Shown here piece by piece: positions 11,404 through 37,799 of a stretch of 51,584 nucleotides of DNA. Position 1 is the stretch's first letter; each line of letters opens with the position of its first letter. Below the pieces are notes generated by a model. That model was given only the letters and a program-made list of their open reading frames with translations. It searched no databases and had not been told where the DNA came from. The position numbers were made by a program, and so were the translations under genes. Location: NCBI GenBank assembly GCA_938027685.1, contig CALJAM010000019.1, forward strand, positions 1 through 51,584, given 5' to 3'. Source of the stretch: an uncultured Bryobacteraceae bacterium. GTDB lineage: Bacteria > Acidobacteriota > Terriglobia > Bryobacterales > Bryobacteraceae.

Positions 11404-11456
11404 TGGGTCAGGCAGGCTCCGCGCGAACGACGCTGCATTTTTCCTGCGCGCCAATG

Positions 11457-13006: not shown

Positions 13007-13052
13007 CCCCGCAAGGCCGGCACATTCGGTGTTGAGAACGCAAGGACCAATT

Positions 13053-13819
<767 letters not shown>

Positions 13820-13823
<4 letters not shown>

Positions 13824-16404: not shown

Positions 16405-16406
16405 CG

Positions 16407-16850: not shown

Positions 16851-16853
16851 GTC

Positions 16854-17162
16854 ATGAGCGCCGATCTGAGAGAGCAGATCATCGACACCTTGAAGACGAT
16901 TTACGATCCGGAAATTCCGGTTAATATCTATGACCTCGGCCTTATCTACGACGTCCAGGTCGACGAACAGGGCGCCGTCCGCATCGCCATGACTCTGACC
17001 GCCCCCGCCTGCCCCGTGGCGGCCATGCTGCCCAGGCAGGTCGAGCAGCGCGTCAGAGAGCTGCCCGGAGTCAAGGAGGCCTCGGTCCAGCTGGTGTGGG
17101 ATCCGCCGTGGACCCCCGACCGTATGTCGCGGGAAGCACGCATGCGACTTGGCTTTTTCTGA
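16854..17162 (+). CDS. sufT: SufT-like DUF59/MIP18 family Fe-S maturation factor
   Basis: A 102-residue protein of the DUF59 family. It has the conserved core DPEIPVNIYDLGLIYDV and the reactive-cysteine segment LTAPACPVAAMLP, followed by VQLVWDPPWTPDRMS. Related proteins (SufT, PaaD, eukaryotic MIP18/CIA2) help deliver or mature Fe-S clusters. It sits between sufU and the regulator within the operon, only 3 and 6 bases from its neighbours, as in many SUF operons. The C-terminus REARMRLGFF is also typical for the family. Confidence 0.93.
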   Translation: MSADLREQIIDTLKTIYDPEIPVNIYDLGLIYDVQVDEQGAVRIAMTLTAPACPVAAMLPRQVEQRVRELPGVKEASVQLVWDPPWTPDRMSREARMRLGFF

Positions 17163-17168
17163 GCGGCA

Positions 17169-17636
17169 ATGAAGATCAGCGCCCAGGAGGAATACGGGAT
17201 CCGCTGCCTGCTGCAACTCGGCAAGGCGCGGGGGGGCAGCCTCACCATCTCCGAGATTGCCCGCGCCGAGGGCCTCTCCCGCGAGTACGTGGCCAAGCTC
17301 ATGCGAGTGCTGCGGCGCGCCGGGTTGGTTCGCAGCGTTCGCGGTCAGGCCGGAGGCTATATGCTCGCCCGCCCGCTCGAAGAGATCTCGGTGTCCGAGG
17401 CCCTGGCGGCGCTGGGCGGCAAGCTCTGGGATCCGTCGTTCTGCCGACAGCATCCCGGTCTGCGCAGTTGTTGCTCGCATACGCCCGACTGCAACGTTCA
17501 GCTTCTGTGGCGGCGCCTGCAGAATGCCGTGGATGGCGTGCTCGACCGCGTCAGCCTGAAGGATCTTCTGGCCTCCTCGGCGCCGGAAGCGACTGTCCCG
17601 CGCAGCGACATTGGCGTCCCCATCCTTGGCGGATAA
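17169..17636 (+). CDS. Rrf2 family transcriptional regulator with Fe-S-type cysteines
   Basis: A 155-residue Rrf2/IscR-like DNA-binding protein. The winged helix covers residues 1-70: KISAQEEYGIRCLLQL, the recognition helix SREYVAKLMRVLRRAGLV, and the wing SVRGQAGGYMLARP. Cysteines 92, 101, 102 and 108 lie where IscR carries its [2Fe-2S] ligands (92, 98 and 104), but the spacing is wider here. It probably senses Fe-S status and represses the suf promoter, an inference from its place as the last gene of the operon. The C-terminal 25 residues look disordered. RsrR- or NsrR-type sensing is an alternative. Confidence 0.9.
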   Translation: MKISAQEEYGIRCLLQLGKARGGSLTISEIARAEGLSREYVAKLMRVLRRAGLVRSVRGQAGGYMLARPLEEISVSEALAALGGKLWDPSFCRQHPGLRSCCSHTPDCNVQLLWRRLQNAVDGVLDRVSLKDLLASSAPEATVPRSDIGVPILGG

Positions 17637-17783
17637 GCGCCCGTCCCCTATTGCTCGGCCGCACAGGCCCTCGGCGGCCTGCCCTCGCACGCCCCGCGCG
17701 CTTGCGCCCCATCTTGCATCTCTGTTACACCGCAGCCGTCGGCGTGGCAAATGCTCTGCCGCCGGTATACATTTGAGAGAAGC

Positions 17784-19454
17784 ATGAGCGAGCAGAAGCT
17801 GCTGGTCGTTCCGCTGGGCGGCCTGGGCGAATTCGGCATGAACTGCCTCGCCCTGCGCTATGGGGACGACATCATCGTCATCGATGCCGGCATGATGTTC
17901 CCTGAGGACGAGCTGCCCGGCATCGATCTGGTTACGCCCGATTTCACCTACCTTCTGGAAAACCGCGAGCACGTCCGCGCGCTCATCCTGACGCATGGAC
18001 ACGAAGATCACATCGGCGCCGCCCCCTTTCTTCTCGGTGAACTGGACCTGCCGGTCTACGGAACCGCCTTCACTCTGGCCCTGGTCGAGCGGCGATGGGA
18101 GGAGCACGAGCGCGAGCAACCCGTGCGGATGCACGAGGTCGAACCCGGCGACATCCTCGAGATCGGGCCTTTCCGCATCGAATTCGTCCACGTGACGCAC
18201 TCGATCGTTCAGGCGACGGCGCTCGCCATCACCACGCCGCTAGGAGTCATCATCCACAGCGGCGATTTCAAGGTCGACCCGACGCCGCCGGACAACTGCC
18301 ACTTCGACCTCCACACGCTGGCCGAGTACGGCCGCCGCGGCGTCTTGCTGCTGCTTTCCGATTCCACCAACGCCGACCGCCCCGGTTACACCGAAAGCGA
18401 ACAAGCCACGCGTCCCCGCCTGGAAGATGTCTTCCATCGCGCCGAGCGCAAGGTGGTCGTCTCCTGCTTCAGTTCTTCCGTGCACCGTATCCAGCAGATC
18501 GTGGATCTGGCCGAAGAATCGGGCCGCAAGCTGGCCTTTGTGGGTCGAAGCATGGTCACGGTGACCGAGATCGCACACTCGCTCGGGTTGCTGCGCCTGC
18601 CCGAAGGCCTGCTGCTGCGCCCCCAGGAGATCATGCAGATGCCGCCGCGCAAGGTCGCCGTCGCGATCTCGGGAAGCCAGGGCGAGCCGATGTCGGCTCT
18701 GGCCCGGGTCGCCGTGAACAGTCACCGGCATCTCGAGATCCAGCCCGGCGATACGGTGGTCCTGAGCTCGCGGATCATCCCCGGTAACGAGAAGGCCATC
18801 TACCGGATGATGAACCACCTGGCGCGCCAGGGCGCCGACGTGATCTACGGACCGATGAACCCGCCGGTCCACGTGTCCGGACACGCCAGCGCCGAGGAAT
18901 TGCGGCTGTTGCTGAACCTCATCCGCCCGCGCTACTTCGTGCCGATCCACGGCGAATACCGCCAACTTGCCAAGCACGCCGCCTTGGCCTCCCACCTGAA
19001 GGAGTCGGGCCTGGAGGAAGTCTTCGTGTTGGAGGCCGGCGAAACGCTGGAGCTGGATCGCTGGGGTGCCCGCAAGGGCGAACGGGTGCCGGTGGGCCGC
19101 GTCTGCATCGATTCGGGCGCGGTCGATGAAGTCGTCGAGGACGTCGTGATTCGCGACCGCCGCCACTTGGCGGAGGAAGGCATCGTACTGCCCGTCCTCG
19201 CCATCGACAAGCGCACCGGCAAGCTCGAGGGCACGCCCGAAATCGTGAGCCGCGGCTTCGCGCCGGCCGGCGACGGATCGGAAGTCATCGAACAGGCGCG
19301 GCAGGTCGTACTTCGCACCCTGGAGACCTCCACGCCCGAGGAGCGCACCGACTGGGGCGTCATGAAAGAAAAGATCCGCACCGACCTGAGGCGGTTCCTG
19401 GTCAGGCAGACTGCGCGCCACCCGCTGATCGTCCCCGTGATCCTCGAACTTTGA
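17784..19454 (+). CDS. rnj: Ribonuclease J
   Basis: A 556-residue metallo-beta-lactamase/beta-CASP ribonuclease with 5' exonuclease and endonuclease activity in mRNA decay and rRNA maturation. The zinc motif is THGHEDHIGA (H71, H73, D75, H76), with HSGDFKVDPTP and the beta-CASP elements LLSDSTNADRPGYTESE and SGSQGEPMSALARV. YGPMNPPVHVSGHASAEEL and YFVPIHGEYRQLAKHA complete the active site. A C-terminal RNase J domain follows, ending RQTARHPLIVPVILEL. The start MSEQKLLVVPLGGLGEFGMN fits the family; an upstream in-frame ATG at 17751 gives an atypical extension. A TATACA box at 17766-17771 is close to the start. Confidence 0.95.
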   Translation: MSEQKLLVVPLGGLGEFGMNCLALRYGDDIIVIDAGMMFPEDELPGIDLVTPDFTYLLENREHVRALILTHGHEDHIGAAPFLLGELDLPVYGTAFTLALVERRWEEHEREQPVRMHEVEPGDILEIGPFRIEFVHVTHSIVQATALAITTPLGVIIHSGDFKVDPTPPDNCHFDLHTLAEYGRRGVLLLLSDSTNADRPGYTESEQATRPRLEDVFHRAERKVVVSCFSSSVHRIQQIVDLAEESGRKLAFVGRSMVTVTEIAHSLGLLRLPEGLLLRPQEIMQMPPRKVAVAISGSQGEPMSALARVAVNSHRHLEIQPGDTVVLSSRIIPGNEKAIYRMMNHLARQGADVIYGPMNPPVHVSGHASAEELRLLLNLIRPRYFVPIHGEYRQLAKHAALASHLKESGLEEVFVLEAGETLELDRWGARKGERVPVGRVCIDSGAVDEVVEDVVIRDRRHLAEEGIVLPVLAIDKRTGKLEGTPEIVSRGFAPAGDGSEVIEQARQVVLRTLETSTPEERTDWGVMKEKIRTDLRRFLVRQTARHPLIVPVILEL

Positions 19455-19466
19455 CCCGATCCGTCT

Positions 19467-22022
19467 TCAGGGCCGAATGACCAAGTCCGGCCAGCACGAA
19501 AGACTCGCCGGCTCTTCCTCCCACGACGGCCGTTGCGGTTGCCCGGCCCCGGCCGTGGCAGGCGTCGGCGGCAGGAACTTGGGGTCCAGCGCACGGTGGG
19601 CCTGGTCGCGCAGGTCCTCCAGGTGCGCGCGCGTCGTGCGGTCGGCGGCCCTGGGCAGTGCCCGCGCGGCCTCGGACGCGATCGTGCGCAGTTCGGCTCG
19701 GAACAGCGGCCGCTGATCGTCCGCGACCGGCGTGCGGCCGTTGAGGCGATCCGCCATCAGCTCCAGGTACAGGCGCTGCACGTTGCGCCGGGCCGCGTCC
19801 ACACGCACTTCGGGCCCTGCCAGTTCCGCGAAAATGCCGCGCCGCAAATCGGCCAGAAATTCCGCGGGCCGATATGCCTGCGGCCCGTCCAGCGTCTCCT
19901 GCTCGACCAGCCGAGCGAAACGACGCCCGTCCAGCAAGTTGTTGAGGATCATGCGCTGCGCGTTGCGGATGCGCTCCAGCGCGCCCTGCGGCTCGATGCG
20001 GCGCAGGATCTCGGGCCTCAGGAAAAGCTGTGGCGTGCGAAAGGCGTTCTCATTGAGAAACTTCACCGCCGCGGCCTGCCGCTCACGCTCGACCGGCGTA
20101 AACAGCACGCCCTCCTGGCCCGCATGTTTCTGCTGCGAGTAGAACCCCCCTACCAACCCCACGACGTGGTTCATCTCGCGCGTCCATTGCGCCAGCACGC
20201 GGCCGTAGACCTCTTCCAGGTCGTCGTAAGGCTTGCCTTTTTCCGGCACGGCTTCCAGCAGCATGTCCATCACCCTGCGCAGGTTCCGCAGCCCCAACTC
20301 GGTGGCGCGCACCGCATCCGCGTCGCCCACGGCCTCCGTGTTCTCCCCCGGATCGGAGCCGGCCGCCTTCGCCGTCGAGAATCGCAGCCAGGGCGTCTTC
20401 TCCTGAGCCGCCAGGATCCACTCATCCAGCACCGGTTTCTCCTCGTCCGGCGTACGAGCCTCCGGGATCGGCTTGTAGCCCCAACTGATGGAAAAGTAAT
20501 CGTACGGGCCTATCTTGGGGATCAGATCTTCCGGATCGATCTTGTCTTCGGGCTGCGCCACATAGTTGAAGCGCGCATAGTCCATCAGCGTGGGCGTATG
20601 ACCCATCTTTTTCACCCACTCCCGGTCCCGAATTTTCTCCAACGGATAAAGCGAGCTGGCCTTCATGTTATGGGGCAGGCCCAGAGTATGCCCTACTTCG
20701 TGGGCCACCACATACTCCAGCAGCCTCCCCATCAGATCGTCGGGCAGCGGAAGCTTGCGGGCGCGCGGATCGAGCGGGCCCACCTGCGTGAAGTACCAGT
20801 GGCGCACAAGGTTGAGAACGTTATGCCAGATGACGATGTCGGCCTCCAGAATTTCCCCCGTGCGCGGATCGTGCACGTGCGGTCCCATGGCGTTCTCTAC
20901 CGTCGAGGGGGCCCACCGGATGACGCTGTAGCGCGCGTCCTCCGCGCTCCAGTCGGGATCCTCCTGCGGCGAGGGCGGATCTTTCGCCAGAATCGCATTG
21001 CGGAAGCCGGCCTGCTCGAAAACCGGCTGCCACTGCTCCACGCCTTTCTTGATGTACGGGATCCACTTCGGCGGAGTGGCCGGGTCGATGTAGAACACGA
21101 TCGGTTTGACGGGCTCGGACACGGCCGCCGAAGGATCCTTCTTTTCCAGCCGCCAACGTGCAATGTAAGTCCGCCTCGGTGCGCGGTGTTCGTCGCGTGA
21201 GTAATCGTATTGCCGGATGTTGAAGTAACCCACGCGCTCGTCGTACAGGCGCGGCCGCATGGGCTGTTCGGGCAGCTTCACCATGCTGAAGTGCATCAGC
21301 AGACTGGCGCTGCCGGGACGCATGGCCGTGGACATCGGCGAAGGCGGAGCCGGCGGCGACGGTGTCGCCCCGGCGGCAGGCGCCTCGACCGGGGAGGTGT
21401 AGGTGTGTGTCGCCTTCACCTCGATGTTCAGGGGGAAGGCCTTCACGTATTCCAGAAAGCTGCGCGAGGCGTCGAAACCGCGCGCCCGCAGCATGGCGCG
21501 CGGCGTGAACTCGGCCACCTCCGTGGTAAACAGGCGCGTTACGTCGATCACCGGCGCCCCCTCCGGCCCCAACGCTTCGATGGGAAACGCCATGATGATC
21601 GTCTCGTTGCTGACGCTGCGCACCGCGAGCGAAATCGGGTGATTGTTGTCCGCCACGACCTCGTAGGAAACATTGCGCAGCAGCACGCGATGGTCCTTGC
21701 GTTCCCAACGCACCACCCGGTTGCCCACGCTCATGCCCCCGTAGCCCAGGCCCGGCGTCCGCTCCACCTTCGTCACCCAGAGAAACTCCTTGCCCAGCTC
21801 GGCAGGCGGGATCTCGTAATAGAGGCGGCTCTTGATCCGATGCACCGTGAAGACGCCCCGCTGCGTCACCGCCTCCTTGGTGATGACCTTCTCGTAAGGC
21901 CGAATCTCCGGCTCCGCCGCGCGGACGGTCGGGCGCTCCTGAGCCGGAGCCGCAGGACTCTCCTGAGCAGGCTCCTGGCCCAGAGCAGTCGTTAGAAACA
22001 ATAAGGCTGCCCACCAACGCAT
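19467..22022 (-). CDS. Exported zinc-dependent metalloprotease (DUF5117/DUF5118-type)
   Basis: An 851-residue secreted or periplasmic protein with a signal peptide ([18 protein letters not shown]) and a Pro/Glu-rich linker. The zinc motif [17 protein letters not shown] lies near residue 440 and follows the extended HExxHxxGxxH pattern. The N-terminal region (about 55-220) resembles DUF5118/5117 parts of these proteases, with [22 protein letters not shown]. The C-terminal region (after about 480) corresponds to the DUF4953-like helical part. These proteins are abundant in Acidobacteriota and Bacteroidota; their substrates are largely unknown. It ends 12 bases from the convergent RNase J stop. 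Confidence 0.85.
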
Positions 22023-22049
22023 AGTTCGAATATAACGGACCGGCCGTGC

Positions 22050-22235
22050 TCAGCGGTGGCCTAGAAACATCAGCCAGCCCAGTCCGAACAAGGCCGCCAG
22101 GAACCAGGCGAAGCAGTAAAGGCCGTAGCGCAGGCGATCCCGATCGTTCGTCTTGCTGACCACCCCGAAAACAATCGACGTGAAGAAAGCAAACAGCAGG
22201 GCGGCTTCGAAGTGCGAAAGGGAGACCTTGGGCAT
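22050..22235 (-). CDS. Small two-helix membrane protein
   Basis: A 61-residue protein opening MPKVSLSHFEAALLFAFFTS. Two hydrophobic segments (about residues 10-26 and 38-58) flank a charged loop NDRDRLRYG, which suggests an integral membrane hairpin. Its ATG overlaps the stop codon of the preceding gene by one base (TGATG), so the two are almost certainly co-translated. A longer reading frame extends upstream in the same phase but runs antiphase through the neighbour and is Arg/Gly-rich, so it is not used. The function is unknown; no family was recognised. Confidence 0.75.
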   Translation of the reverse strand: MPKVSLSHFEAALLFAFFTSIVFGVVSKTNDRDRLRYGLYCFAWFLAALFGLGWLMFLGHR

Positions 22236-22651
22236 CAGTCCTTTCTCCCCGCCGCGATTTCGAAAGCGTCCACCATCGCGAGAATGTTCAGCAGCCCGGC
22301 CGTCACTAGGAATTTCGCGCCGTAATCGTGCACCGCCCCCGGCGCCTCCGGCTGCGAATACCCCAGCCACACCGTAAGCAGATAGAGCACGCCCGCGCAC
22401 ACGTTGCCCACGAAGCCCCCGTAGTTCATTAGGGTGCTGAGGAAATCGGGCCCCTTGACCGGATGGAAAAGGTAGCCCCGCATCATCAGGCCGAACAGAT
22501 ACATGCCCGTGATGGCGAAGGCCAGCAGTCCTGCCCGCCCGTAGCGCTTCAGCAGGAAATGTCCGCCGCCCGGGATCAGCCATGCTAGGGCCACCGCCGG
22601 TCCCCAGACGTTCGCCGGCGGCAGCGGTTCCTTGGCGCGGAGCGCACACAT
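22235..22651 (-). CDS. DUF6677-like membrane protein
   Basis: A 138-residue protein with four probable membrane segments. The first two contain ALAWLIPGGGHFLLKRYGRAGLLAFAI, which resembles the TM2/DUF6677 pattern of a Pro-Gly-Gly-Gly-His turn between helices. Later hydrophobic parts are YGGFVGNVCAGVLYLLTVWLG and FLVTAGLLNILAMVDAFEIA. Such proteins are frequent in Acidobacteriota and have no known function. It begins a two-gene unit with the 61-residue membrane protein, which it overlaps by one base. The family name is from recall of the pattern. Confidence 0.75.
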   Translation of the reverse strand: MCALRAKEPLPPANVWGPAVALAWLIPGGGHFLLKRYGRAGLLAFAITGMYLFGLMMRGYLFHPVKGPDFLSTLMNYGGFVGNVCAGVLYLLTVWLGYSQPEAPGAVHDYGAKFLVTAGLLNILAMVDAFEIAAGRKD

Positions 22652-22718
22652 ACGTCTCAGCCGAAACCCTCAGTGTAGCATGCGGTGCGCGCCCGGCCCC
22701 GAGGACGCACCCCGACGC

Positions 22719-23591
22719 TCAGCCCTGCTGCATCTGCCGGATCAGTCCCCGAATGTAGGCCAGATTCCGGCGCATGTCCTCCTCGACCGAGCCCGAGGGC
22801 GACGAGGTCTCCAGATTGGCGAACCCTTCGAAACCGATATCCGCGATCGCGCGCAGCACGGCCACGAAGTCGATGCTTCCCTCGCCGAGGTACCCCTTGT
22901 CCTTCAGGTGGATCTGACAGATGCGCTCGCGGCCCAGCCAGCGTATCTCCTCGTAGATGTCAAAGCCGCGATTGGTCGAGTTGCCGACGTCGTAATAGAC
23001 GCGCACGGCCCGCGAACGCGCCCGCTCCAACATGCGCGCGTTCTCTCGCGCCGAGCAGGTGTTTTCCAGCGCCAGGATCACACCCGCCTTTTCGGCCTCC
23101 GGCGCCAGCTCGCGCAGCACGTCCGCCACGTAATCCATCTCCTGCTGCGTCTCCAGCGCCCCCTTGCCGAAAAACGGCAGCAGCATGACACGGGCTTGCA
23201 GCCGCTGCGTAATTGGAATCCCGGCCGCCACCCATTTCTGCCCCAGGGGATCGTTCTTCAGATAATTCACGTGAAGGATGTCGAGACAGGTGCCGGCCAG
23301 GGCGATCTTGTGCGCGCGGGCTTCGGCAAGGTAGCGGTCTTGCAGGGCTGCGTCATCGAGCGGGAGCTTGCCCTCGATAGGTTTGCGCCCGAGGCTGACC
23401 TCGACGCCCTCGAATCCCAGGCGCGCCGCCAGCTCGACGGCTTCCACTCGGCCCGCCATACGCAAATTCCAGTCGGTGACCCCGATGCGCAGGCCCGCCA
23501 GCGGCTTCCCGGGAGCGGACCCTCCTCTATTCGCCCACGCGAGCGCCCCCATCGTTGCCAGGAACTGTCGCCGCGATGACTCCACCGCCAA
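22719..23591 (-). CDS. Sugar phosphate isomerase/epimerase-like TIM-barrel protein, Tat-exported
   Basis: A 290-residue member of the xylose isomerase-like TIM-barrel superfamily (AP endonuclease 2-like). The N-terminus ESSRRQFLATMGALAWA is a twin-arginine signal, so the protein is probably exported folded with a metal bound. Barrel landmarks are LGFEGVEVSLG, VILALENTCSAR (metal-binding Glu), VRVYYDVGNSTNRG (Asp), ICQIHLKDKGYLGEGSIDF (His and Lys) and FEGFANLETSSPSG (Glu). These fit the divalent-metal site of sugar isomerases and 3-keto-sugar epimerases. The substrate is unknown. It stands alone between ClpS and the small membrane protein genes. Confidence 0.85.
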   Translation of the reverse strand: MAVESSRRQFLATMGALAWANRGGSAPGKPLAGLRIGVTDWNLRMAGRVEAVELAARLGFEGVEVSLGRKPIEGKLPLDDAALQDRYLAEARAHKIALAGTCLDILHVNYLKNDPLGQKWVAAGIPITQRLQARVMLLPFFGKGALETQQEMDYVADVLRELAPEAEKAGVILALENTCSARENARMLERARSRAVRVYYDVGNSTNRGFDIYEEIRWLGRERICQIHLKDKGYLGEGSIDFVAVLRAIADIGFEGFANLETSSPSGSVEEDMRRNLAYIRGLIRQMQQG

Positions 23592-23666
23592 CCTCCTTTC
23601 CTTTCCTTAGCGCGAATCACTGGCATTATACGCCCGCGCAGCCCCGCACACAGTCGCGCTGCGCAC

Positions 23667-23999
23667 TCAGGTCTCACCCTCGCCGCCCGCCGGTTCGATG
23701 ATGGCTCGCATCGATCCGGGCGAATCCGGAATGCGCCAGTCCGGGCCGTAGGCGAGAATCTGATCCCGCGCGAACTCCGCCTCGGCCAGCTCGCAGGTAA
23801 TGACCACCGTGCGCCCGGTGGTGTCCACCTCGACCGCGTGCGCGAAGGCTTCGGCCTCCGAGAACAGGAACAGGCGCATCAGCATTTCGACGACGTAGTC
23901 GTAAGTGTGCTTGTCGTCGTCGAGCAGGACTACGTTATAGAGCGGCGCCAGCCGATCCCTTTGCCGAACCTTGGTCTCCGACAATACCTCAGTGGCCAT
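23667..23999 (-). CDS. clpS: ATP-dependent Clp protease adaptor ClpS
   Basis: A 110-residue ClpS adaptor, which brings N-degron substrates to the ClpAP protease. The core NVVLLDDDKHTYDYVVEMLMRLF contains the acidic pocket residues and the helix with the specificity Met. The conserved His in EAFAHAVEVDTTGRTVV follows, and CELAEAEFARDQILAYGPDW completes the domain. The first 20 residues form the usual flexible N-terminal extension that enters the Clp pore. No clpA or clpC is adjacent. The gene lies near ssrA, another protein-quality element, but the two are 1.7 kb apart and oppositely oriented. Confidence 0.94.
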   Translation of the reverse strand: MATEVLSETKVRQRDRLAPLYNVVLLDDDKHTYDYVVEMLMRLFLFSEAEAFAHAVEVDTTGRTVVITCELAEAEFARDQILAYGPDWRIPDSPGSMRAIIEPAGGEGET

Positions 24000-25705: not shown

Positions 25706-25716
25706 CGAAATCGAAA

Positions 25717-26068
25717 GGGGGCGTAACGGATTCGACGGGATTGATCCCGTGGACGGAAGGCGTGCCGGGTTCCGAGCTCCCGTAAAACGATCGGAAAACA
25801 AAAACTGCCAACGCGCAGTTTGCCTACGCTGCCTAATTGACAGGCAGCCGTCCTCGCCGGCAGGCCTGCTGGCCGGCGTAAGGGCGTCATCAGTGCAGGC
25901 TGGGCGATAGGCTTCAGCCCGGAGCCGAACGCCGAGAGCAATCGGGCCAGGCCGCTCGAAGGCTTGCCGGTTCCCACCGGGCGGCTGGAATTGCTGAACC
26001 GGCTACGCACGTAGTCTTCCGTCGGCGGGCTTTCTCGGACGCGGGTTCGACTCCCGCCGCCTCCACCA
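25717..26068 (+). ncRNA. ssrA: tmRNA (transfer-messenger RNA)
   Basis: A 352-base tmRNA. The 5' end GGGGGCGTAACGGATTCGAC is diagnostic, and the 3' end reads TTCGACTCCCGCCGCCTCCACCA with encoded CCA. The acceptor stem pairs GGGGGCG with CGCCTCC, including one G-U. The tag reading frame is GCC at 25807 to TAA at 25834-25836, giving the peptide ANAQFAYAA, which ends in the Ala-Ala protease signal. The arms around the tag contain the stretches expected to form pseudoknots. tmRNA rescues stalled ribosomes together with SmpB and marks the nascent chain for proteolysis. SmpB is not in the window. Confidence 0.96.
25807..25836 (+). other. tmRNA proteolysis-tag reading frame (ANAQFAYAA)
   Basis: The resume codon is GCC and the frame ends at TAA, encoding nine residues after the alanine carried by charged tmRNA. 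The short length and AYAA end match tags that I recall from Acidobacteriota. The sequence just upstream (AAAAACT) is A-rich, as is common before the resume codon. Confidence 0.85.
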
Positions 26069-27864: not shown

Positions 27865-30800
27865 TCAGAAACTTAGTTTCGCCGCCATGCTGATACGCCG
27901 CTGCTCCGGAAATTGAGTGGCGCTGACTTGTCCGAACAGCGTGCTGGTCGGCGTCGTGTTGGGCGCGGCGAACATGGCGTGGTTCAGCGCGTTCTGCGCT
28001 TCCGCGCGTAACTGCAAACGCAGACGTTCCCGGATGCGGATGTTCTTAAAAAGCGAAAGATCCCACTGATTGAAGCCGTCTCCGCGGATGTCGTTGAAGC
28101 GCGGCGGAAAGGCGCGAATGTTGTTGGCGAGTTGTTTGGCGCTGTCGCGTTCGAACCCGGCGTCGATGTTGAACCAGCGTTCGGCCTTGCGCCGGCCCAC
28201 GGGCAGAGTCACGTCCTTAATGTTGCCGTAAAAGATGATATTGCCGAAGCCCAGGGGCGGGCCGCTCTGTCCCTGATAAATCGCTTGCACCTGCCACCCG
28301 CCGACCAGGTGTTCGAGCCAGCCGCGAGCCCCGGAAAGCAGCGCCCGGCCGCGACCGAAGGGTAACTCGTAAATAGCCGTCAGGGCTATGTGCTGGGGAC
28401 GATCCTGCGGCGAAATCACCTCGTAGGGCACAGGATCCGAATCGTTCAGGAATTCCACCGCCTCCATGAATTTCGACCACGTGTAGGAGACGTGCATGGT
28501 AAATCCTCTTGCGAAGCGCTTCTCCAAACGTACTTGCAGAGAGTGGTACCAACTGTAGCCGACGTCGTCCAGCGTGGATAGGTCCACGAAGTGCGGGAAC
28601 GGCCTTAACAATTGTGAGCGCGGCACGTTGGCCCCGGCCAGCGCGCTGCCCGCGAACTCGGCAATGCCCGCAAAGGGATTGCGAACATTGGCGGTGAGGA
28701 AATCGATCACCGGCTGATCGCGTACGGGCGAGCGGCTCAACCAACGCGCCGGGACGAAGTTGACGGCTCTGGTGAGGTTCAGCAGCGAACCTCGGTTGCC
28801 GACATAACTGGTCTCGAGCATCCACCGCCAGGGCAACTCGCGCTGCAAACCGAGGCTCCAGCGCTGCATGTAGCCATTGCGCAGGCTGGGCGGGGAAAAC
28901 GAGGTGGATCGCCCCAGAAAGGTCCGCAGGCCGTTGGCCGCCCCGGCCGGCTTGAGGAAGCCGTCGGGGAAAGGATCCGCCAGCGTAGCGCGGAATGTGA
29001 GCCCGTTATCGAGGCTGGGATTGAGGTTCGTCCGCTGGGCAAATCCTTGCTGCCCCACGTCGTTACGCGTAGCCCCGTTCAGCTCGTAGAAAATTCCGTA
29101 GCCCCCGCGCCAAACGGTCTTCGGCGTCATCTGCCAGGCGATACCGAAGCGCGGCGCGAAGTTCGACTTGTCCGTGTCCCAAAGCCCTCTCGGAACGCCT
29201 CCCACCCCCGCGAAAAGCAATCCGCCCAGAGTCCGGAACTCGCTCACCGGCAGCTCCGGAATGGGACTGCGCGCATAATTGGCGCGGGCCTGCTCCTCGA
29301 TGGGATTCGGAGTGTGGAAGTCAAAGCCCCGGGTGGAACGGTTGTAGCGCTCGGTGATGGGGGTTTCCAGCTCGTAACGCAGCCCGAGGTTCAGCGTCAG
29401 CCTCGACGTCAGCTTCCAGTCGTCCTGAAAGTAAAGGCCCGCGAAGCGGGATTGCTGCGCCACGCTGGGATTGTCATCGCGCCCTCCCCCCGTGGGCAAT
29501 CCCAACAGAAAGGACGCCAGCCCTTGGCCGATGGGTGCCGCCGGAGAGTTATCCAACGGGCCCCGCGTCCACGTGGTTTGGAAGTCTATCGCCGGCGTGT
29601 AATTGCCCCAGGAGTAGCGGTTCTCCTGGAATACCCGTGTCTCGCCGCCGAACCGCAGCGAGTGGTTGCCGCGCGTATGCGTCACGTTGCCCGTAAGGAA
29701 ATGATAGTTGGTGACCGTGGAATAGCCGTTGTCCCGGCTCAACGCCTGCAATCCCTGAATCGTGATGTTGGGAATGATGGTCTGTTCCCGCTCGAGCAAC
29801 GCTACGAAACGGGGCGCAAAGCCCAGCGACGCCAGATCGTAGCCGAGCGAGTCCGGCCGCTCGGCCGTCGGGAACCTCGTCATCCCGTAGCGGACGTTCA
29901 GGAACGTACGCGGCGAAAGCACGTAGACGTCGTCCAGCGAGACCCCGCGGTGATCGCGAGACTGTACGTGTCCAACGGCGATGATGCCCGGGAAACGCCG
30001 ATTCGCCGGCTCCTCCAGGTCGGACCATGAGAACGACACGAAAAGACGATGCTTTTCGCGGAACACATGGTCGACCCGTACCGAGTGCGAGTAATAGTCA
30101 ATCTTGGTTCCGACCGGGGCAATGAAATTGTTCCGCCCCTCGGGATTCTCCGTCGAGTTAGGCAGGGGATAGAAATCCAGCAAGCGCTTCGCTACCGGAT
30201 CTATGCGACTGGCCGGGATGATGTTACCCGGCAGCGGCTGGCGCGAAAAGCGCCCTCCCGGAGCCGGCGCAATCGTGGCCGGATCGTAAATCTGGTAACG
30301 GCTCCCCAACGCCAGAAGTTCGCTGAAGTCGCCCGCCCGCTGACGCACGGTGGGAACAGTGTTCGTTCCCGTCACCGGCCGCTTGCGAAACAGCTTGTCC
30401 CAGCCGTAAATAAAAAAGGTCCGGCTCCGCACGATCGGTCCGCTGACGGTCGCCCGATAGCGGTTCGTCTGAGTCGGCGGCCATTGCGAGTTCTTCTTCT
30501 CCTCGGTGATGGGGCCCGTGTTGGGATCGAAGATGAATCGATTGACGAAGAAATTGCGCGTCATCAGCGGCCGTGAGTAGTGGCTGAACCATAAGTCGCC
30601 GTGCCACTCGTTCGTGCCGCCGCGGGTGACGATGTTGAACGTCGCGCCGGAAAAGCCGCCCTGGCTGGCGTCGAACGGCGCGGTCTGGATCTTCATCTCC
30701 TGAACCATCTCGGGCGGCGGCGAATAAGTAGCCATCCCGTTCTGGGTCATGATGGGATTGCCGTCCAGGGCAAACTGGTTGGACCTCGAGCGTGTGCCCA

Positions 30801-31362
30801 CGGCGGCGATGTTGCTCCAGGAGTCGTGCGCGTGCGGAAACCACCCGTGCGTGGATGCGTTCAGCGAAATGATGCCGGGCGTCAGCTGGAGCAGATAAGC
30901 CGGGTTGCCGCCCGCCAAAGGCAGATCCGCCAACCGGCGGCGGTCGACCAATTGCCCGACCGACGCTTCGCTGGCTTCCAATAGCGGTGTCTCAGCCGTC
31001 ACCGTGATGCTCTCGGTAATTTGGCCGGGCTCCAGCGTGATGTCCAGCGTGATGGCGTCGCCCACGCGCACCTCGATGTTGGGCCGCTCGAAGCGTTTGA
31101 AGCCCGGATGCTCGACTACGATGCGGTAATAGCCCGGATTCAGGTATAGCAACTGGTAGTTGCCGAGCTCGTTGGCCTCCGCGCCGATGTTCACCTCGGT
31201 TTGCGTGTGGATGGCGGTAACGCGCGCACCCGGCACCACAGCGCCGGATACGTCCCGCACCCGCCCTAGTATCCGCCCCCGCGGATCCTGCCCCAAGGCT
31301 GGATTGATTCCCAGAAGAATAACCGGCAGAAAGATAACCAGGACACCGCCCCCTTTCCTCAT
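27865..31362 (-). CDS. TonB-dependent-receptor-like outer membrane protein with CarboxypepD_reg domain
   Basis: A 1165-residue protein with a signal peptide (MRKGGGVLVIFLPVILLGINPALGQ). Residues about 28-110 form a carboxypeptidase-regulatory-like domain (GRILGRVRDVSGAVVPGARVTAI). A plug domain follows (VGQLVDRRRLADLPLAGGNPAYLLQLTPGI and TPLLEASEAS), then a long beta-barrel rich in aromatic/glycine strands. It ends in phenylalanine (SMAAKLSF), as outer-membrane beta-barrels do. Such OmpA/TonB-type proteins are a hallmark expansion in Acidobacteriota. The ATG at 31362 was preferred over one 14 codons upstream because it gives a clean signal peptide. The ligand is unknown; the adjacent sulfatase suggests a sulfated glycan. 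Confidence 0.9.
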   Translation of the reverse strand: MRKGGGVLVIFLPVILLGINPALGQDPRGRILGRVRDVSGAVVPGARVTAIHTQTEVNIGAEANELGNYQLLYLNPGYYRIVVEHPGFKRFERPNIEVRVGDAITLDITLEPGQITESITVTAETPLLEASEASVGQLVDRRRLADLPLAGGNPAYLLQLTPGIISLNASTHGWFPHAHDSWSNIAAVGTRSRSNQFALDGNPIMTQNGMATYSPPPEMVQEMKIQTAPFDASQGGFSGATFNIVTRGGTNEWHGDLWFSHYSRPLMTRNFFVNRFIFDPNTGPITEEKKNSQWPPTQTNRYRATVSGPIVRSRTFFIYGWDKLFRKRPVTGTNTVPTVRQRAGDFSELLALGSRYQIYDPATIAPAPGGRFSRQPLPGNIIPASRIDPVAKRLLDFYPLPNSTENPEGRNNFIAPVGTKIDYYSHSVRVDHVFREKHRLFVSFSWSDLEEPANRRFPGIIAVGHVQSRDHRGVSLDDVYVLSPRTFLNVRYGMTRFPTAERPDSLGYDLASLGFAPRFVALLEREQTIIPNITIQGLQALSRDNGYSTVTNYHFLTGNVTHTRGNHSLRFGGETRVFQENRYSWGNYTPAIDFQTTWTRGPLDNSPAAPIGQGLASFLLGLPTGGGRDDNPSVAQQSRFAGLYFQDDWKLTSRLTLNLGLRYELETPITERYNRSTRGFDFHTPNPIEEQARANYARSPIPELPVSEFRTLGGLLFAGVGGVPRGLWDTDKSNFAPRFGIAWQMTPKTVWRGGYGIFYELNGATRNDVGQQGFAQRTNLNPSLDNGLTFRATLADPFPDGFLKPAGAANGLRTFLGRSTSFSPPSLRNGYMQRWSLGLQRELPWRWMLETSYVGNRGSLLNLTRAVNFVPARWLSRSPVRDQPVIDFLTANVRNPFAGIAEFAGSALAGANVPRSQLLRPFPHFVDLSTLDDVGYSWYHSLQVRLEKRFARGFTMHVSYTWSKFMEAVEFLNDSDPVPYEVISPQDRPQHIALTAIYELPFGRGRALLSGARGWLEHLVGGWQVQAIYQGQSGPPLGFGNIIFYGNIKDVTLPVGRRKAERWFNIDAGFERDSAKQLANNIRAFPPRFNDIRGDGFNQWDLSLFKNIRIRERLRLQLRAEAQNALNHAMFAAPNTTPTSTLFGQVSATQFPEQRRISMAAKLSF

Positions 31363-31858
31363 GGCTGGCTTCCCCTGTCCCAATTGTTTGCCCCCTGTGC
31401 GCATTTGTCAATCCCCCTACGGCCCGATCCGCTAGCGCCGGGGACTCGATATGCTCCGGCGTCTGCCGGCCTAAGTGTTTCTCGACGCCCCCTGGTACCG
31501 CATCCGCCCGTTCCCGACCGCGCCGGGCCGGACACGGCAGCGCCTTCCCGCTCCCGTTTGCCCGAGTGACATTGCCTCACGGCCAACCCGGAAACCTAGC
31601 CCTTTCCACAAGCCTCTGTGCCGCGCAGGGTAGGGGCATCCTCTTGAGGGTTGCCAGTCAAGCAAGCCGGGCCAGCGGCCGTAACCTCACGGAGTGGAGC
31701 TGAAAGCCGCTTGCGAACCCGTAAGTTTGTTGACAGTAAATTCTTTCACCTACACCAAAACCTGCCGAGATCAAAGCTCGATAAATTTCTCGGCTTTGGC
31801 GTGCGGGTCGGCTCGATGCTCGGGTCTTCTCTGCCGAGCACTATGAGCGCCTCTTAAC
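31363..31858. other. Non-coding gap between the receptor and helicase genes
   Basis: This 496-base gap lies upstream of the receptor gene and downstream of the helicase gene, both on the minus strand. It must hold the receptor promoter. It also contains a pair of interleaved inverted repeats at 31765-31798. TTGACA on the plus strand at 31730-31735 has no good -10 partner. No convincing gene was found. Confidence 0.6.
31765..31798. repeat. Two interleaved inverted repeats
   Basis: CCGAGA (31765-31770) pairs with TCTCGG (31788-31793), and CAAAG (31772-31776) pairs with CTTTG (31794-31798). The two stems cannot easily form together because their 3' arms adjoin directly, so they look like alternative hairpins. 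The location is about 60 bases beyond the helicase stop codon. Confidence 0.4.
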
Positions 31859-34800
31859 CTATGAGCGCGGTGCGCATGCCGCCCACCCGCGTGAACGAAA
31901 CACTCGCAGGATGACTTGCAGAAACGCTCGCCGATTCTTGGTTAACCTGTCGAAGCCGTAGTGCTCGAGCACGGCGTGCATCAGCGCCTCGTCAGGGTCG
32001 GCTTCGCCTCCCTGCCGCTGAGCGAGCCCGCGCAGAACCTCCAGCAATTCCGACGGCGGGATTTCCAGCAGATCGCGCGATCCCCTTTCGCGCACTGCTA
32101 CGCGCGATGCCCCCGCCGCACGGATCTCCACGAACTCCGGCGATTCGACGCCGGTGAGGTTTTCGATCTCGATCTCGCCGGCTCTGCGCAATTGCATCAA
32201 TCCCCTGTCTAGCGCACGCCGGACTAGTTTCCCGGCTCGCTGCAGGCTCGGGCAGCTCCGAACGTACAGACGCACCAGCCGCCGCTTGTTCATGGGGCCC
32301 TCCTGTTCGATCAGGGCGCGCAGCGCCTCCCGGACGGCCGCAGCAGGTGCCTCTCGGGGATCCGGTAGCCCCCATCCTGCCTCCTCCTCAACCAGCCTTT
32401 CGTCAGCGCTGGCTTCTTCCGGTTCGTCCTCGGCCGCCACCTCCCCCTCTCCCTCGTCGGCTGCTTTCGCGGTTACGAAGACCGCGGGGCTGGTTAAAGT
32501 GGGACCCACCGCGGGCCGTATCCCCTGTTCCTCGCACGCCTCCACGATGCGCTGGATCGCTTGACTCCGATCCGCGTAGAACTCCGAGGCTCGCAGCCGC
32601 ACGAATCGCCAGCCGGCGCGCTCCAGCTGCCGCTGCCGCTGCAGATCGTACTCGTACCTCTCGGGTCCGTGCCATGCGTCCCCATCGCATTCCAGCGCCA
32701 GCCGGCTCTCTTCCCCCTCGATCACGAAATCGATGCGGTAACCGGCCACCTCGTACTGGGGCAGCAGCCGGTAGCCGAGCCGCAACAAGGCCAGCGCGAC
32801 GTCCACTTCGAACCAGCTCTCGTAGGGCTCCGGTTGCCTCCCGGGCTGACGTCCTCTCCGCAGCGCTTCCTGCTCGAGCCGCGCCGCATCCTCGTGCCGC
32901 TCCCGCAGTACTTGCGGTTCATTGAAGAAGTTCAGCAGACGGTAGCGCAGATCCTCCCGGCTTAAATCATGCAGTTGCACGCTGTGGAACAACCAGACCT
33001 GGTCGCGGGCGCGACTCATGGCCACGTTGAAGCGGCGTTTGGCCTCGATTTCGGTCAGCGCCCGGAAGGAATGGTTCGGCGCGATGACCAAGGATAGGAA
33101 TATGACGTCTCGTTGATCGCCCTGAAAGGTCGCCGGAACCCCGCACCGGAGCTTCCTTTCCTGTCGCACCGAAGCTGGAATGCGACGCGCCAGCTCTCGC
33201 TCGATCCGCTCCGCCTGAAGATGACCCTGTAAGACGATCACGCCCATGGTTTTGTCTTCGTAAGCCTCGTCCGCCAGGCACCGCTCGATAGCGTCCACAA
33301 TCGCCTCCGCTTCGGCCGGATTCTCGATGCGCCCAGCCTCTCCTCGGCACCAGCCGCCTTCCACGAAGACCGCCTTCAGGGGCTGCAATCTCTGCGGAGG
33401 CGGCTGACGCAGGGGGATCAGCGGCGCCTCGTGGTAACACAGCTCGTTGCTGAACCGGATGATCTCCGGCACGCAGCGGAAATGCTCGCGCAAGGTGATA
33501 AGTTGACCGAAGGCCCTGTCCGCCTGATCGTACAAACTGCAGTCCGGTCGAAACTCCTCCCGGAAGTGGAAACCCCACAGGTGGTCCCGCGTCAGGCGTG
33601 CAATGTCGTTCTCGGGGATTCCCACGGCCTCGGGGCTGTTCTGCATGTCATCCCCTACCACCACGATGCGTTTGGCCAACAGCAACAGCAGCAGGGATTC
33701 TAGACCGGCCTGCGAAGCCTCGTCCACTATGACCGTATCAAAGATGCCCGGCTGCGCCTCGCTCATTTCCCAAACCCGGTACAAGGGCATGATCCACGCC
33801 GGAATTTGCGGCAAGCACTCCAGCAAATAGCGCTGTGCCGCCCGACGATGGAGCCACGCGTAGGCCCCGGTTCCTCGACCCATCCTTCGCATGGCCTGTC
33901 CCCAGGCAATCAGGTTCTGACGCGTCCGGTCGTCCAGCCGCTGGAAAAACGCCGTCCAAGCCTTCAGCGATGCCAGCTCCCCCACCTTTTCTTCGATCCG
34001 AATCTGCACCTCGCGCCGCTGCTCCGCAAGGGCTTCCGCGTATCCCGGCTCCGTCACGCGGGCCAGCCACGCCCGAGCGTAAGCCCACACCCAAGCCTCT
34101 TTTAGCTCCCTGATTCGTTCCCCCCATCCGGCCTCTCCCTCTTTCGCCCGCAGCAGGGTCGCCAACTCGGGGCAGGAGGACTCAATTCGTCGCAACAGCC
34201 CCTCGTAGCGGACCAACTCAGGCTGTTCCTGGCGCAGCCTTTCGCGTACCGCCCACGCCGCCGCATACAGCCCGAGATCCCGGTCCCGGATGGCCTCTTC
34301 TAATTGGTGCACGCATGCATGGACACCACCCGACGCCAGTGCCGCCGAAACCCGATCCCGCCAGTCCGCTAGCTGCTTGCGGGCCCCCTCCAGTCGGCGC
34401 CGCGACAACTCCGCATGCACGCAGCGGATCCAGCGCGCACGATGGTCCTCTCGCCACAGCTCCAGTTGCTGCGCAACCGGAAGCAGCCTCAGAGATGCTG
34501 CGGCCGGCTGCGCGAAAACACCCACCAGGCCCTCCACTCCCTCGATCGCCCGCCGAACTTGCAAGACTAGCAACCGCCGGTTCTCCCTCGGCGCTTCCAT
34601 AGGCGCGGGCCAAAGCTGCCGGAACCGCTCGTATGCATGCTCGAACTCATAGAAAGCGACCACCTTGCGGAGATCTTCGGGCGAGCGCGGCGCTCGGCCA
34701 TCGATGCGGAAGATCTGCTCAATGTAAGCGGTCTCACGAATGACTCGCGGCGCCAAAATCCACCAGCCCCGCCACCCCCCTCCTTGAAGATGCTCCAATC

Positions 34801-36928
34801 GTCTCTGCGCGTCCGGGAACAACCTCGCCCGCACCTCCTCAGCACGGAACCTCGCCGGCATTGCTTCTTCCGGCATTAGTTCGATTCGCGCCTCACCCAA
34901 ACGTTCGACCGCGTCCTGCATGCTGCGGAACGCCTCTCGCGCCTGATCCAACCACGCCGCCCACAACGTCCTCCTTCCGGCTAGACAGTCAGCCAGCACT
35001 TGCTCGGCGACCTCGCGTAGCGCGGACGACGCACGCGCGGCCTCTGCGTCCATCCCTTCCAAAAAGCTCTTCAGCGCTTCCAGCTGCTCGTGGTTGCAAT
35101 GCTCGAGCCGACCAAGCTGTTTGGCCTCGACGTCCGCCGACGCCTCTTGGAATTCCGCTTCCGCATCCAACAATTTGTTCACCGCTGCCTGGAATTCCTC
35201 TGGTGCGGGAAGCTCGTCGGGACCGCTATCTAAGCTCAATTCCTGCCTTCTCTCCTGAGTCAACCTCGCATGAAAGTCCGCCAGGAACCTGGTCTCGGCC
35301 TCATCCAACGGCCACTCCCCCTGCCGAAAGCTGGTTCTCGGAAACCAGTCGAATCTCGCCGCCTCTTGTTCGACCCGCTGCGCGATCTCGGCTGCCGTAC
35401 CCTCGTAACCACCGGGAAGGCGATGGGTATACGTCTCGGCTTCGCGCGCCTCTCGAAGCTTGCGATCCAGCGCGGCGGCCTCCTCCTCCAGGCGCTGTAA
35501 TTGCTGCTCTAGACGAGCCGCCTCCTGCCCTGCCCAGGCGACTCCCCTCCAGCGATCGTGCTCTGCCAGTATGCGGCGCACGCTCTCCTCCAGCCGGAGC
35601 AAGTGCTCGCGCCCCGACCCTAACAGGGTTACGCAAAGCGCCTCGATGTTCCTCGGTAGCAAGCCCAGCAGGACCTCCAGCGCCTTGGGCGCCTGAGCGG
35701 TCACCAGCACCCGTTCACCGCTCGCCAGCAGGTGGCAAATTAGGTTCGCTATGGTGTGGCTCTTGCCCGTTCCAGGAGGCCCCTTGACTAGTACGCAATC
35801 GTGTGCCCGCAGACGCTCCGCGATGCTGCGCTGCTCCTCGTTAGTGGGAAGCGGGTAGAATAGCCGCCCGTCCGCCTCAGTTTGTCCTCGATCGTTCGCC
35901 TCTCGCTCGGCTACCGCCGAGTTCCCCTCGTAAATGATCCTTAGCCAGGGACGCGTCAGCAACCGCTCTGCGTCCTCGCTCATTCGCTCGAGCAGTTTGT
36001 CCACCAGTTCCTCGTAGGCTCGCAGCCGACGTTCGCGCAAGACCAGGGCCGGCGCATAGTGAATTCGCGGCACTGCATCCGCCTCACCGTCGGCTCCGAA
36101 CTCCTCTGCGTGGACCGAGCAACGCGGGTCGAGCTGGTTACCCAGCCAACGCAGGATCTCGCCCAGCTTGACCGTGTCCCAAGCCCGCATCCCTAACTCC
36201 GCCAACGCCTCCTCGAGTTCGCTCCCTTTCCAACGCGGCTGATGCTGGGGCCCCAGCATATCCAGCTCCACACGGAAGGCATCGACGGTCGCGTCCGGAA
36301 CTACCCTGAGTCTGCCTCGCCGCGCGTCTAAAATGATCTCCGCCCGTGCCGTCAGAAGGTGGCGGCGCACAGTCTGATTTGCCGGATCCCGCCAAATCAA
36401 AAGCCCCGCCGCAAGGACGAGTTCATAGCGCTCCTCTGCTTCCTCGATCCGGCGGCGCATGTAATCGAGCTCCTCGTAAAGCCGCAGGACCTCCTCAACA
36501 CGCCTCTGCTTCTCCGCCCATGGCCTCCATGCCTTCTCCAAATACTCTTTCCAGGCTATTTTCGCGTCCCGCAGCACATTCCACGGTAGGTTGACGCCGC
36601 CCAGGGTCGCGCCGGCGCTCTTCGGCTCTGTGGTGGGTTCCTGCTTGGGCTCGCGCCAGCCCGAGATGTGAAAATAACGCCCGACCGGCTCAGGGACCTT
36701 CGGCGGATCTTCCGGCGTAGGCTTCTGCACTTCCAGCCAGGTCGTGAGCTCTTCGTCCCTGCGAGGAGACAAAAGCGCCGAGATGACTTCATCGGAGAGA
36801 TTCTGTAGGTCCGCGAACCAGATCACTTTGTCGTTCGGCCCGTACGTGACCGGCCGGTGCCGTCGCAGTTTGCTAAATTCGCGTAAAAACTCCAATAAGC
36901 CACGGGACTTAATCAGCTCATCGGACAT
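31859..36928 (-). CDS. Giant SF1 (Upf1-like) helicase with DUF559/Vsr-like nuclease domain
   Basis: A 1689-residue protein. Walker A GPPGTGKS lies near residue 382, in an AAA_11-type setting (VKGPPGTGKSHTIANLICHL). Walker B DEASQAG is about 680 residues later, near 1067, after a long helical, coiled-coil-rich insert (LEQQLQRLEEEAAALDRKLREAREAE). Motif VI is NVAMSRARDQVWLFHS near 1307. Around 1380-1470 is a restriction-endonuclease-fold domain with ALECDGDAWHGPERYE and RAGWRFVRLRASEF, like DUF559/MTES_1575/Vsr. A further C-terminal region (1530-1689) resembles the DUF3320-type tail. Such helicase-nuclease fusions are associated with phage defence. It is a single gene with large gaps on both sides and a tRNA nearby. 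Confidence 0.85.
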   Translation of the reverse strand: MSDELIKSRGLLEFLREFSKLRRHRPVTYGPNDKVIWFADLQNLSDEVISALLSPRRDEELTTWLEVQKPTPEDPPKVPEPVGRYFHISGWREPKQEPTTEPKSAGATLGGVNLPWNVLRDAKIAWKEYLEKAWRPWAEKQRRVEEVLRLYEELDYMRRRIEEAEERYELVLAAGLLIWRDPANQTVRRHLLTARAEIILDARRGRLRVVPDATVDAFRVELDMLGPQHQPRWKGSELEEALAELGMRAWDTVKLGEILRWLGNQLDPRCSVHAEEFGADGEADAVPRIHYAPALVLRERRLRAYEELVDKLLERMSEDAERLLTRPWLRIIYEGNSAVAEREANDRGQTEADGRLFYPLPTNEEQRSIAERLRAHDCVLVKGPPGTGKSHTIANLICHLLASGERVLVTAQAPKALEVLLGLLPRNIEALCVTLLGSGREHLLRLEESVRRILAEHDRWRGVAWAGQEAARLEQQLQRLEEEAAALDRKLREAREAETYTHRLPGGYEGTAAEIAQRVEQEAARFDWFPRTSFRQGEWPLDEAETRFLADFHARLTQERRQELSLDSGPDELPAPEEFQAAVNKLLDAEAEFQEASADVEAKQLGRLEHCNHEQLEALKSFLEGMDAEAARASSALREVAEQVLADCLAGRRTLWAAWLDQAREAFRSMQDAVERLGEARIELMPEEAMPARFRAEEVRARLFPDAQRRLEHLQGGGWRGWWILAPRVIRETAYIEQIFRIDGRAPRSPEDLRKVVAFYEFEHAYERFRQLWPAPMEAPRENRRLLVLQVRRAIEGVEGLVGVFAQPAAASLRLLPVAQQLELWREDHRARWIRCVHAELSRRRLEGARKQLADWRDRVSAALASGGVHACVHQLEEAIRDRDLGLYAAAWAVRERLRQEQPELVRYEGLLRRIESSCPELATLLRAKEGEAGWGERIRELKEAWVWAYARAWLARVTEPGYAEALAEQRREVQIRIEEKVGELASLKAWTAFFQRLDDRTRQNLIAWGQAMRRMGRGTGAYAWLHRRAAQRYLLECLPQIPAWIMPLYRVWEMSEAQPGIFDTVIVDEASQAGLESLLLLLLAKRIVVVGDDMQNSPEAVGIPENDIARLTRDHLWGFHFREEFRPDCSLYDQADRAFGQLITLREHFRCVPEIIRFSNELCYHEAPLIPLRQPPPQRLQPLKAVFVEGGWCRGEAGRIENPAEAEAIVDAIERCLADEAYEDKTMGVIVLQGHLQAERIERELARRIPASVRQERKLRCGVPATFQGDQRDVIFLSLVIAPNHSFRALTEIEAKRRFNVAMSRARDQVWLFHSVQLHDLSREDLRYRLLNFFNEPQVLRERHEDAARLEQEALRRGRQPGRQPEPYESWFEVDVALALLRLGYRLLPQYEVAGYRIDFVIEGEESRLALECDGDAWHGPERYEYDLQRQRQLERAGWRFVRLRASEFYADRSQAIQRIVEACEEQGIRPAVGPTLTSPAVFVTAKAADEGEGEVAAEDEPEEASADERLVEEEAGWGLPDPREAPAAAVREALRALIEQEGPMNKRRLVRLYVRSCPSLQRAGKLVRRALDRGLMQLRRAGEIEIENLTGVESPEFVEIRAAGASRVAVRERGSRDLLEIPPSELLEVLRGLAQRQGGEADPDEALMHAVLEHYGFDRLTKNRRAFLQVILRVFRSRGWAACAPRS

Positions 36929-37722: not shown

Positions 37723-37799
<77 letters not shown>

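Follow-up and report, generated by a model that had tools for sequence, protein, structure and literature searches.

The window analyzed here, one entire contig (51,584 nucleotides) of the genome of an uncultured Bryobacteraceae bacterium, contains a gene that, judging from its sequence, probably encodes a horizontally mobile helicase-nuclease, complete in itself, that serves as an effector of defense against phages (or plasmids), either alone or embedded in BREX systems. The general kind of protein is known, whereas the family is probably so far unnamed. Relatives of this gene are found in unrelated bacteria, in phages, and in antiviral gene clusters, so that it is probably a mobile antivirus device. 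The features discussed below are the following:

31859-36928, minus strand: helicase-nuclease gene with an ATG start, 1689 aa (Pfam AAA_11, AAA_12, MTES_1575)
35864-36928, minus strand: N-terminus, residues 1-355, with a stalk helix (116-164) and a beta-rich 1B-like part (168-299) in the AlphaFold2 model
35747-35782, minus strand: Walker A GPPGTGKSHTIA, residues 383-394, with G383, K389, and S390 in 18 of 18 aligned proteins
33809-35611, minus strand: helical insert, residues about 440-1040, separating motif II of RecA1 from the Walker A part (AlphaFold2 model)
32987-33742, minus strand: motif II (D1069 E1070 ASQ) to motif VI (R1306), RecA2, residues 1063-1314, from conservation and structure match
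32519-32818, minus strand: Vsr/MTES_1575-type nuclease, residues 1371-1470, from Pfam and fold match (E1374, D1400, E1413, H1420, D1428)
31862-32344, minus strand: C-terminal DUF3320-like winged-helix region, residues 1529-1689, from a weak DUF3320 match and the model
37723-37799, minus strand: tRNA-Asp (GTC), ARAGORN and Rfam; the variable interval is bounded on one side by its 3' end
25717-26068, plus strand: tmRNA, ARAGORN and Rfam; the variable interval is bounded on the other side by its 3' end

Domain architecture of the helicase-nuclease

The frame of 1689 codons is uninterrupted, with every motif residue intact, and the gene is single-copy, with one match in its own genome at E <= 0.001. 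A large SF1 helicase fused to a DUF559/Vsr-like nuclease, as proposed in an earlier note made from the letters alone, is real: Pfam finds the two halves of a split helicase, AAA_11 (residues 363-514) and AAA_12 (residues 1131-1314), and behind them the MTES_1575 restriction endonuclease (REase) domain (PF18741; residues 1373-1464, 8.6e-28, 96.7 bits, above the cut-off of 38.2), and DUF559 itself is matched at 7.9e-8.

Two RecA domains, a DEASQ-type motif II, a stalk, and a 1B part characterize the motor as a UPF1-like SF1 helicase. In the conservation alignment of 18 proteins, the window protein included, D1069, E1070, D1093, D1094, and R1306 are kept in all 18, as is the DEASQ motif. The AlphaFold2 model of residues 1-1150, made from an 18-sequence alignment (mean pLDDT 84.5, pTM 0.57), was superimposed by VIA-align, over residues 3-1150, on residues 294-702 of human UPF1 (9qwn_A; Z 19.7, rmsd 5.8, 364 aligned); plain Foldseek, in which long coiled coils dominate, retrieved UPF1 with this model at a mere E of 6.5e-3. 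The VIA-align matches of this model also include Dna2. Because the UPF1 alignment starts at residue 3, the N-terminal part is better read as stalk and 1B part of a UPF1-like motor than as a separate sensor domain. The model of residues 1050-1689 (mean pLDDT 69.7, pTM 0.35) resembles UPF1, Sen1, and Aquarius over RecA2, with Z scores of about 13 to 16.5. The insert between the helicase halves, originally put at about 680 residues, is nearer 600 (about 440-1040); apart from two strands of at least three residues, it is helical in the model. Its identity is 16-44% per 40-residue block over residues 521-1000, and a Foldseek search of the insert yielded nothing reliable. By its position, the insert appears to be an enlarged version of UPF1 domain 1C.

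The best fold match of residues 1371-1470 is the catalytic domain of the homing endonuclease I-Bth0305I (3r3p_A; Z 12.3, rmsd 2.0, 95 aligned). E1374, D1400, E1413, and D1428 are present in 18 of the 18 aligned proteins, and D1415 and H1420 in 17 of 18 each; the stretch ALECDGDAWHGPERYE, quoted originally as the nuclease, corresponds to residues 1411-1426, inside the REase domain. Read from these conserved residues and those of the motor, both the ATPase and the nuclease are likely to be working. At the C-terminus, the model contains a helix-helix-helix-hairpin with high pLDDT, in a part that the listed fold-search matches of the 1050-1689 model do not cover. The proposed affinity to DUF4011/DUF3320-type helicases holds in its second half, weakly: DUF3320 is matched in the piece from the window at E 0.0013 (19.1 bits against a cut-off of 25) and, at E <= 0.05, in 8 of the 28 family pieces scanned (10 C-terminal and 18 N-terminal). 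DUF4011 is absent both from the Pfam matches of the window protein (E <= 0.01) and from the five families that the 28 terminal pieces hit at E <= 0.05.

A variable interval between tmRNA and tRNA-Asp

The interval that holds the gene runs from the 3' end of tmRNA to that of tRNA-Asp, a setting that the earlier note missed. It did place a tRNA gene about 800 bases upstream, and tRNA-Asp is indeed 794 bases away; this upstream gap holds stop-to-stop frames, the longest of 202 codons. On the downstream side, at a distance of 454 bases, is a TonB-type barrel gene (OMP_b-brl_4; 27865-31404). This barrel is one of a very large set, with 58 matches at E <= 1e-50 in the same genome. At this locus, the gene is isolated, as had been stated; the family is not. 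The whole interval from tmRNA to tRNA-Asp spans 11.65 kb and encompasses a sulfatase, the TonB-type barrel, and the helicase-nuclease.

Both congeners examined (G002, 98% complete, and G001, 81%) lack the gene. To the right of the interval, starting from tRNA-Asp, G002 and the window are 78-79% identical up to 44753; the similarity ends at 37722, beside the tRNA 3' end, and past this break, G002 carries metabolic genes (read by eye). On the tmRNA side, the two genomes share the blocks 21496-23989 (77%) and 25713-26068 (91%), with about 1.6 kb extra between them in the window, and the similarity stops at 26068, the 3' end of tmRNA. Beyond this point, G002 carries genes for a tyrosine integrase and a TmtA-like protein, as well as HmaA, HmaB, and the beginning of HmaC. 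Since synteny with G002 ends at the 3' ends of both tRNA-Asp and tmRNA, the gene resides in a variable interval; the G002 anchors lie on two contigs, and the comparison covers the edges of the interval. The 11.65-kb interval is variable, with a known island border. The defense island of G002 at tmRNA occupies positions 2639-19999 of locus L107 (G002:C147). In G010, from the same taxonomic family, a C-terminal fragment of a tyrosine integrase (by eye) is located just downstream of tmRNA (L050 2143-2418).

Profile scans detected no defense gene or integrase among the scanned neighbors in the window, which counts against the defense reading, and no core BREX genes among the scanned adjacent genes. 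A search for att-like repeats, direct or inverted, of the 3' ends of tmRNA and tRNA-Asp found none, which likewise counts against it; the sole repeat-like signal is the resemblance between the 3' ends of these two RNAs themselves. Rfam, run over the whole window, detected tRNA and tmRNA and nothing else, and blastn of both flanks against the comparison loci gave no match for either flank. We also considered a foreign composition of the gene and rejected it: neither GC3 (0.741 vs 0.785-0.826 in four neighbors) nor the codon-usage distance (0.435 vs 0.256-0.492 for six window genes, which are included in the reference pool, flattering their distances) gives a clear signature.

Patchy distribution of the family

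A scan of genome contigs identified 17 loci at 44-51% identity. The 17 contigs, which come mostly from MAG bins, so that stray contigs are possible, are labeled as Acidobacteriota, Aminicenantes, Chloroflexi, Planctomycetota, Verrucomicrobia, Tectomicrobia, Clostridia, Proteobacteria, Kapabacteria, and Spirochaetia, that is, ten groups. The samples overlap: L059, L064, and L066 are the contigs of G022, G030, and G642, respectively. Within the order of the window, the gene is patchy, with matches at E <= 1e-40 in 13 of the 257 genomes, from 13 genera; at E <= 1e-60, it was detected in 15 of the 396 genomes of the phylum sample (the own genome included in both counts) and in 7 of 387 genomes of the phylum of G262 (the centre genome included). 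Among 61 relatives of the window genome, 22 have matches at E <= 0.001, mostly distant, at about 30% identity; near full-length copies (50-51% identity) are present in G022 and G030 alone.

The tree of the family (22 rows) does not follow taxonomy. The taxonomic family of the window is scattered: G178, G030, and G022 are found among rows of other phyla, G174 groups with G133, and G154 groups with the viral contigs L109 and L110 (support 100). For the window protein itself, the position in the tree is poorly supported, and in such a quick tree, these patterns are no proof of transfer. Seventeen relatives are uninterrupted, and several of these are solo and come from other phyla; broken copies were also encountered, one extending over several frames (L065) and one in two frames (G031).

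A search of phage records produced one weak partial match. Among plasmid records, 128 contain matches, one of which spans 80% at 35% identity. On a Variovorax plasmid (L117), a relative with 35% identity over half its length is located near DUF4194 and AAA ATPase genes, presumably, parts of a Wadjet system.

Genomic neighborhoods of the relatives

Several relatives are embedded in BREX loci. In L066, brxF (8.3e-55) overlaps the gene upstream and brxC (6.9e-135) lies directly downstream, in a BREX-3 locus; the gene in L065 is likewise placed between brxF and brxC, and in L063, brxF is upstream (1.3e-41), with no brxC downstream. The single-contig genome G591 carries the helicase gene between pglX and pglY of a BREX-2 system. 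The upstream gene in G591 is 41-55% identical to six places on plasmids, five annotated as BREX-2 PglX and one unannotated, and a frame further upstream was read by eye as PglW; the downstream gene shows 43-68% identity to six places (DUF6079 in two, phage resistance protein in one, hypothetical in two, and unannotated in one). This DUF6079 gene we take to be pglY. The relatives in L065, L066, and G591 are thus directly adjacent to core BREX genes. On two of the matched plasmids, other genes lie between pglX and the DUF6079/pglY gene, namely, a KAP NTPase and an AAA ATPase in one, and ParA with hypothetical proteins in the other, which suggests that this slot accommodates accessory genes. The stretch from pglX to the DUF6079/pglY gene varies by record: L140 (6232-19717) carries the helicase-nuclease, and L141 and L142 carry different accessory genes. 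Clear brxF or pglX/pglY company was found at four loci only, which counts against the defense reading.

Other members neighbor type I methylase and specificity genes (L061), Cas10 and Csm3 (L044), or SspB, SspC, SspD, and PbeA (L111). In two viral, phage-like contigs, a tail sheath gene is located beside the helicase-nuclease, together with the major head gene (L109) or the portal gene (L110). In G166, complementary parts of the gene are found at two contig ends (L103 and L104), with integrase, capsid, and portal genes near one part and a gpA terminase gene near the other; these halves appear to be one gene split by an assembly gap, in what looks like a prophage. No defense gene was recognized by eye in other loci, for example, L058, L062, L067, L068, L070, L071, L073, and L076. 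The member in L073 (8314-17148) is flanked by dnaA and dnaN (identified by eye), a position near the replication origin, and that in L059 is beside a gene read by eye as argS; several homologs are solo among ordinary genes, as in the window, which counts against the defense reading. Consistent housekeeping company, which the earlier note considered to be incompatible with defense, was not observed: several homologs are in or near BREX-2, BREX-3, Ssp, type I restriction-modification (R-M), and type III CRISPR loci or phages, and others are alone.

The neighbor count used nine of the 17 loci, each on a contig longer than 55 kb. The cases were 96 ORFs lying within 8 kb of the gene; as controls, 103 ORFs were taken from stretches chosen arbitrarily elsewhere on these contigs, the closest of them some 20 kb away. 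The ORFs came from a simple picker, not a gene finder. At 1e-20, 76 PADLOC families were matched among the cases and 4 among the controls, a difference that overstates the enrichment because one methylase matches many models. Counted by ORF at the same threshold, at least 12 of the 96 cases and at most 3 of the 103 controls (AbiEii, C3a156, and mad3) have matches (p = 0.014), but ORFs of one operon are not independent. The 12 case ORFs, counted from the first 25 of the 76 families, are two BrxF, two type I MTases, two HEC-01A (one of these matches without ORF assignment), HEC-01B, BrxC, HsdS, RmrA, and Cas10 and Csm3, the latter two scored on identical copies of L044; the SoFic and PDC-S02 matches were left out as not assignable to ORFs. 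The case matches lie in L061, L063, L064, and L065. Counted by locus, 4 of 9 compare with 1 to 3 of 9 (p 0.15 to 0.5), which is not significant and counts against the defense reading. A lack of enrichment near defense genes had been named as an argument against a defense role; an enrichment is seen by ORF, but by locus it is not significant.

Probable function and alternative explanations

The case for defense combines the conserved catalytic residues, the combination of a UPF1-type motor with a Vsr-like nuclease, the patchiness, and the variability of the locus with phage-like carriage, embedding in BREX-2 and BREX-3, and the defense island of the congener at the same tmRNA border. The suggestion of the earlier note that this is a candidate single-gene defense system is supported: the gene does not occupy the same locus in all close relatives, given that both congeners lack it and the G002 locus differs, and the homologs are not confined to housekeeping surroundings. 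As a possible mechanism, the UPF1-like motor would load on exposed single-stranded nucleic acid of the invader, such as replication or injection intermediates, or on the processed invader genome, and move along the strand at the expense of ATP; the motor might be gated or positioned by its long arm of helices and by the winged helix at the C-terminus, and the Vsr-like domain, once activated, would cut the track. In BREX loci, the protein would serve as an added effector, and in the window genome, it would act alone.

The most substantial alternative, albeit a rather unlikely one, is an RNA-targeting enzyme like CoCoNuT CnuH, in which motor and nuclease would act on invader or host RNA and cause abortive infection instead of cutting DNA. 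UPF1 and Sen1, the top structure matches, are RNA helicases, and CnuH of type III-B is described, in the available parts of the source, with the same helicase, insert, and fused Vsr-like nuclease (PMC11090510). However, no McrC/CnuC (PF10117) was detected on the contig of the helicase in the 14 helicase-bearing genomes of the 16 searched, mostly drafts (PF10117 is over the cut-off in 5 of the 16 genomes, two of them without the helicase, and the own genome has a sub-cut-off match on another contig); moreover, the nearest structural match of the nuclease is a DNA homing endonuclease, and the relatives are embedded with DNA-modifying BREX or are near type I R-M genes.

The solitary position of the gene in the window, the embedding of some relatives in multi-gene systems, and the broken copies in L065 and G031 would also fit a degenerate, functionless leftover of a larger defense system (such as BREX) that lost its partners, an explanation made improbable by the intact frame of the window gene with all motif residues and by the 17 uninterrupted relatives, which include several solo genes of other phyla. 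A helper of DNA repair or replication that merely travels with islands is very improbable: Dna2 is among the structure matches, and some members are beside dnaA/dnaN, argS (both by eye), or other ordinary genes, but the patchy presence, the absence from the congeners, the departure of the tree from taxonomy, and the members in phage-like contigs and BREX operons all argue against such a role.

If the defense reading is correct, a broadly spread single-gene immune effector (17 contigs from ten named groups) is added to the known repertoire, and the gene, found with and without BREX around it, offers a clean case for how accessory effectors join BREX. A further, tentative possibility is that this unnamed family of solo helicase-nucleases leads three lives, as a stand-alone immune gene, as a BREX add-on upstream of brxC/pglY, and as phage cargo; if so, one effector would plug into different BREX systems via the shared BrxC/PglY ATPase.

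Comparison with known systems

The window protein passes no named NCBIfam cut-off. Hhe (NF042953; 114.8 bits vs a cut-off of 2000, with DUF4011 not among the matches) and ProA (NF058533; 204.1 bits vs a cut-off of 1500) were considered and rejected. Both have a helicase core and an REase in common with the window protein; the ProA model aligns over window residues 322-1661, with its first 604 positions outside the match. No account of what ProA is was found in the open-licence PMC literature. The best PADLOC match is PDC-S37, a candidate single-gene system (1.7e-60, 203.1 bits, in two stretches); the best stretch, positions 938-1530 of 1550, comprises the second helicase half, the REase, and the C-terminus. 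Against this model of 1550 positions, the window protein and four of its relatives reach only 197-230 bits, and the window protein appears to be a distant relative of PDC-S37.

Accessory genes inside BREX core loci, including an REase fused to a helicase, have been described as BREX auxiliary nucleases (PMC12839542). Those named in the available parts of that paper are SF2 helicase fusions, and an SF1/Vsr gene between brxF and brxC or pglX and pglY is not mentioned there; nor did we find, in the open-licence PMC literature, a description of the window subfamily or of an SF1/Vsr gene inside BREX.

The build most like that of the window protein is that of CnuH from type III-B CoCoNuTs, as given in PMC11090510. 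According to the portions of that description available, this CnuH is a UPF1-like SF1 helicase in which a large helical insertion follows Walker A and to which a Vsr-like nuclease is fused directly; it has an N-terminal wHTH and a CnuA partner and is without the CnuE-type wHTH (PMC11090510). The UPF1-like helicase, the large helical insert, and the fused nuclease are shared with the window protein, as matched by description; in contrast, 10 of the 18 aligned proteins of the window family end in a DUF3320-like region. The MTES_1575-type proteins, as outlined in the accessible part of PMC3710099, combine an SF1 helicase, a Vsr REase, and a wHTH overlapping DUF3320; the prototype adds HEPN and transglutaminase domains, whereas the window protein starts at the helicase stalk. 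Given the CnuH-like build without McrC on the contig, we place the window protein, which would be mobile and not tied to any one system, among the SF1 helicase-Vsr nuclease conflict proteins of the MTES_1575 type, as far as these are described there (PMC3710099).
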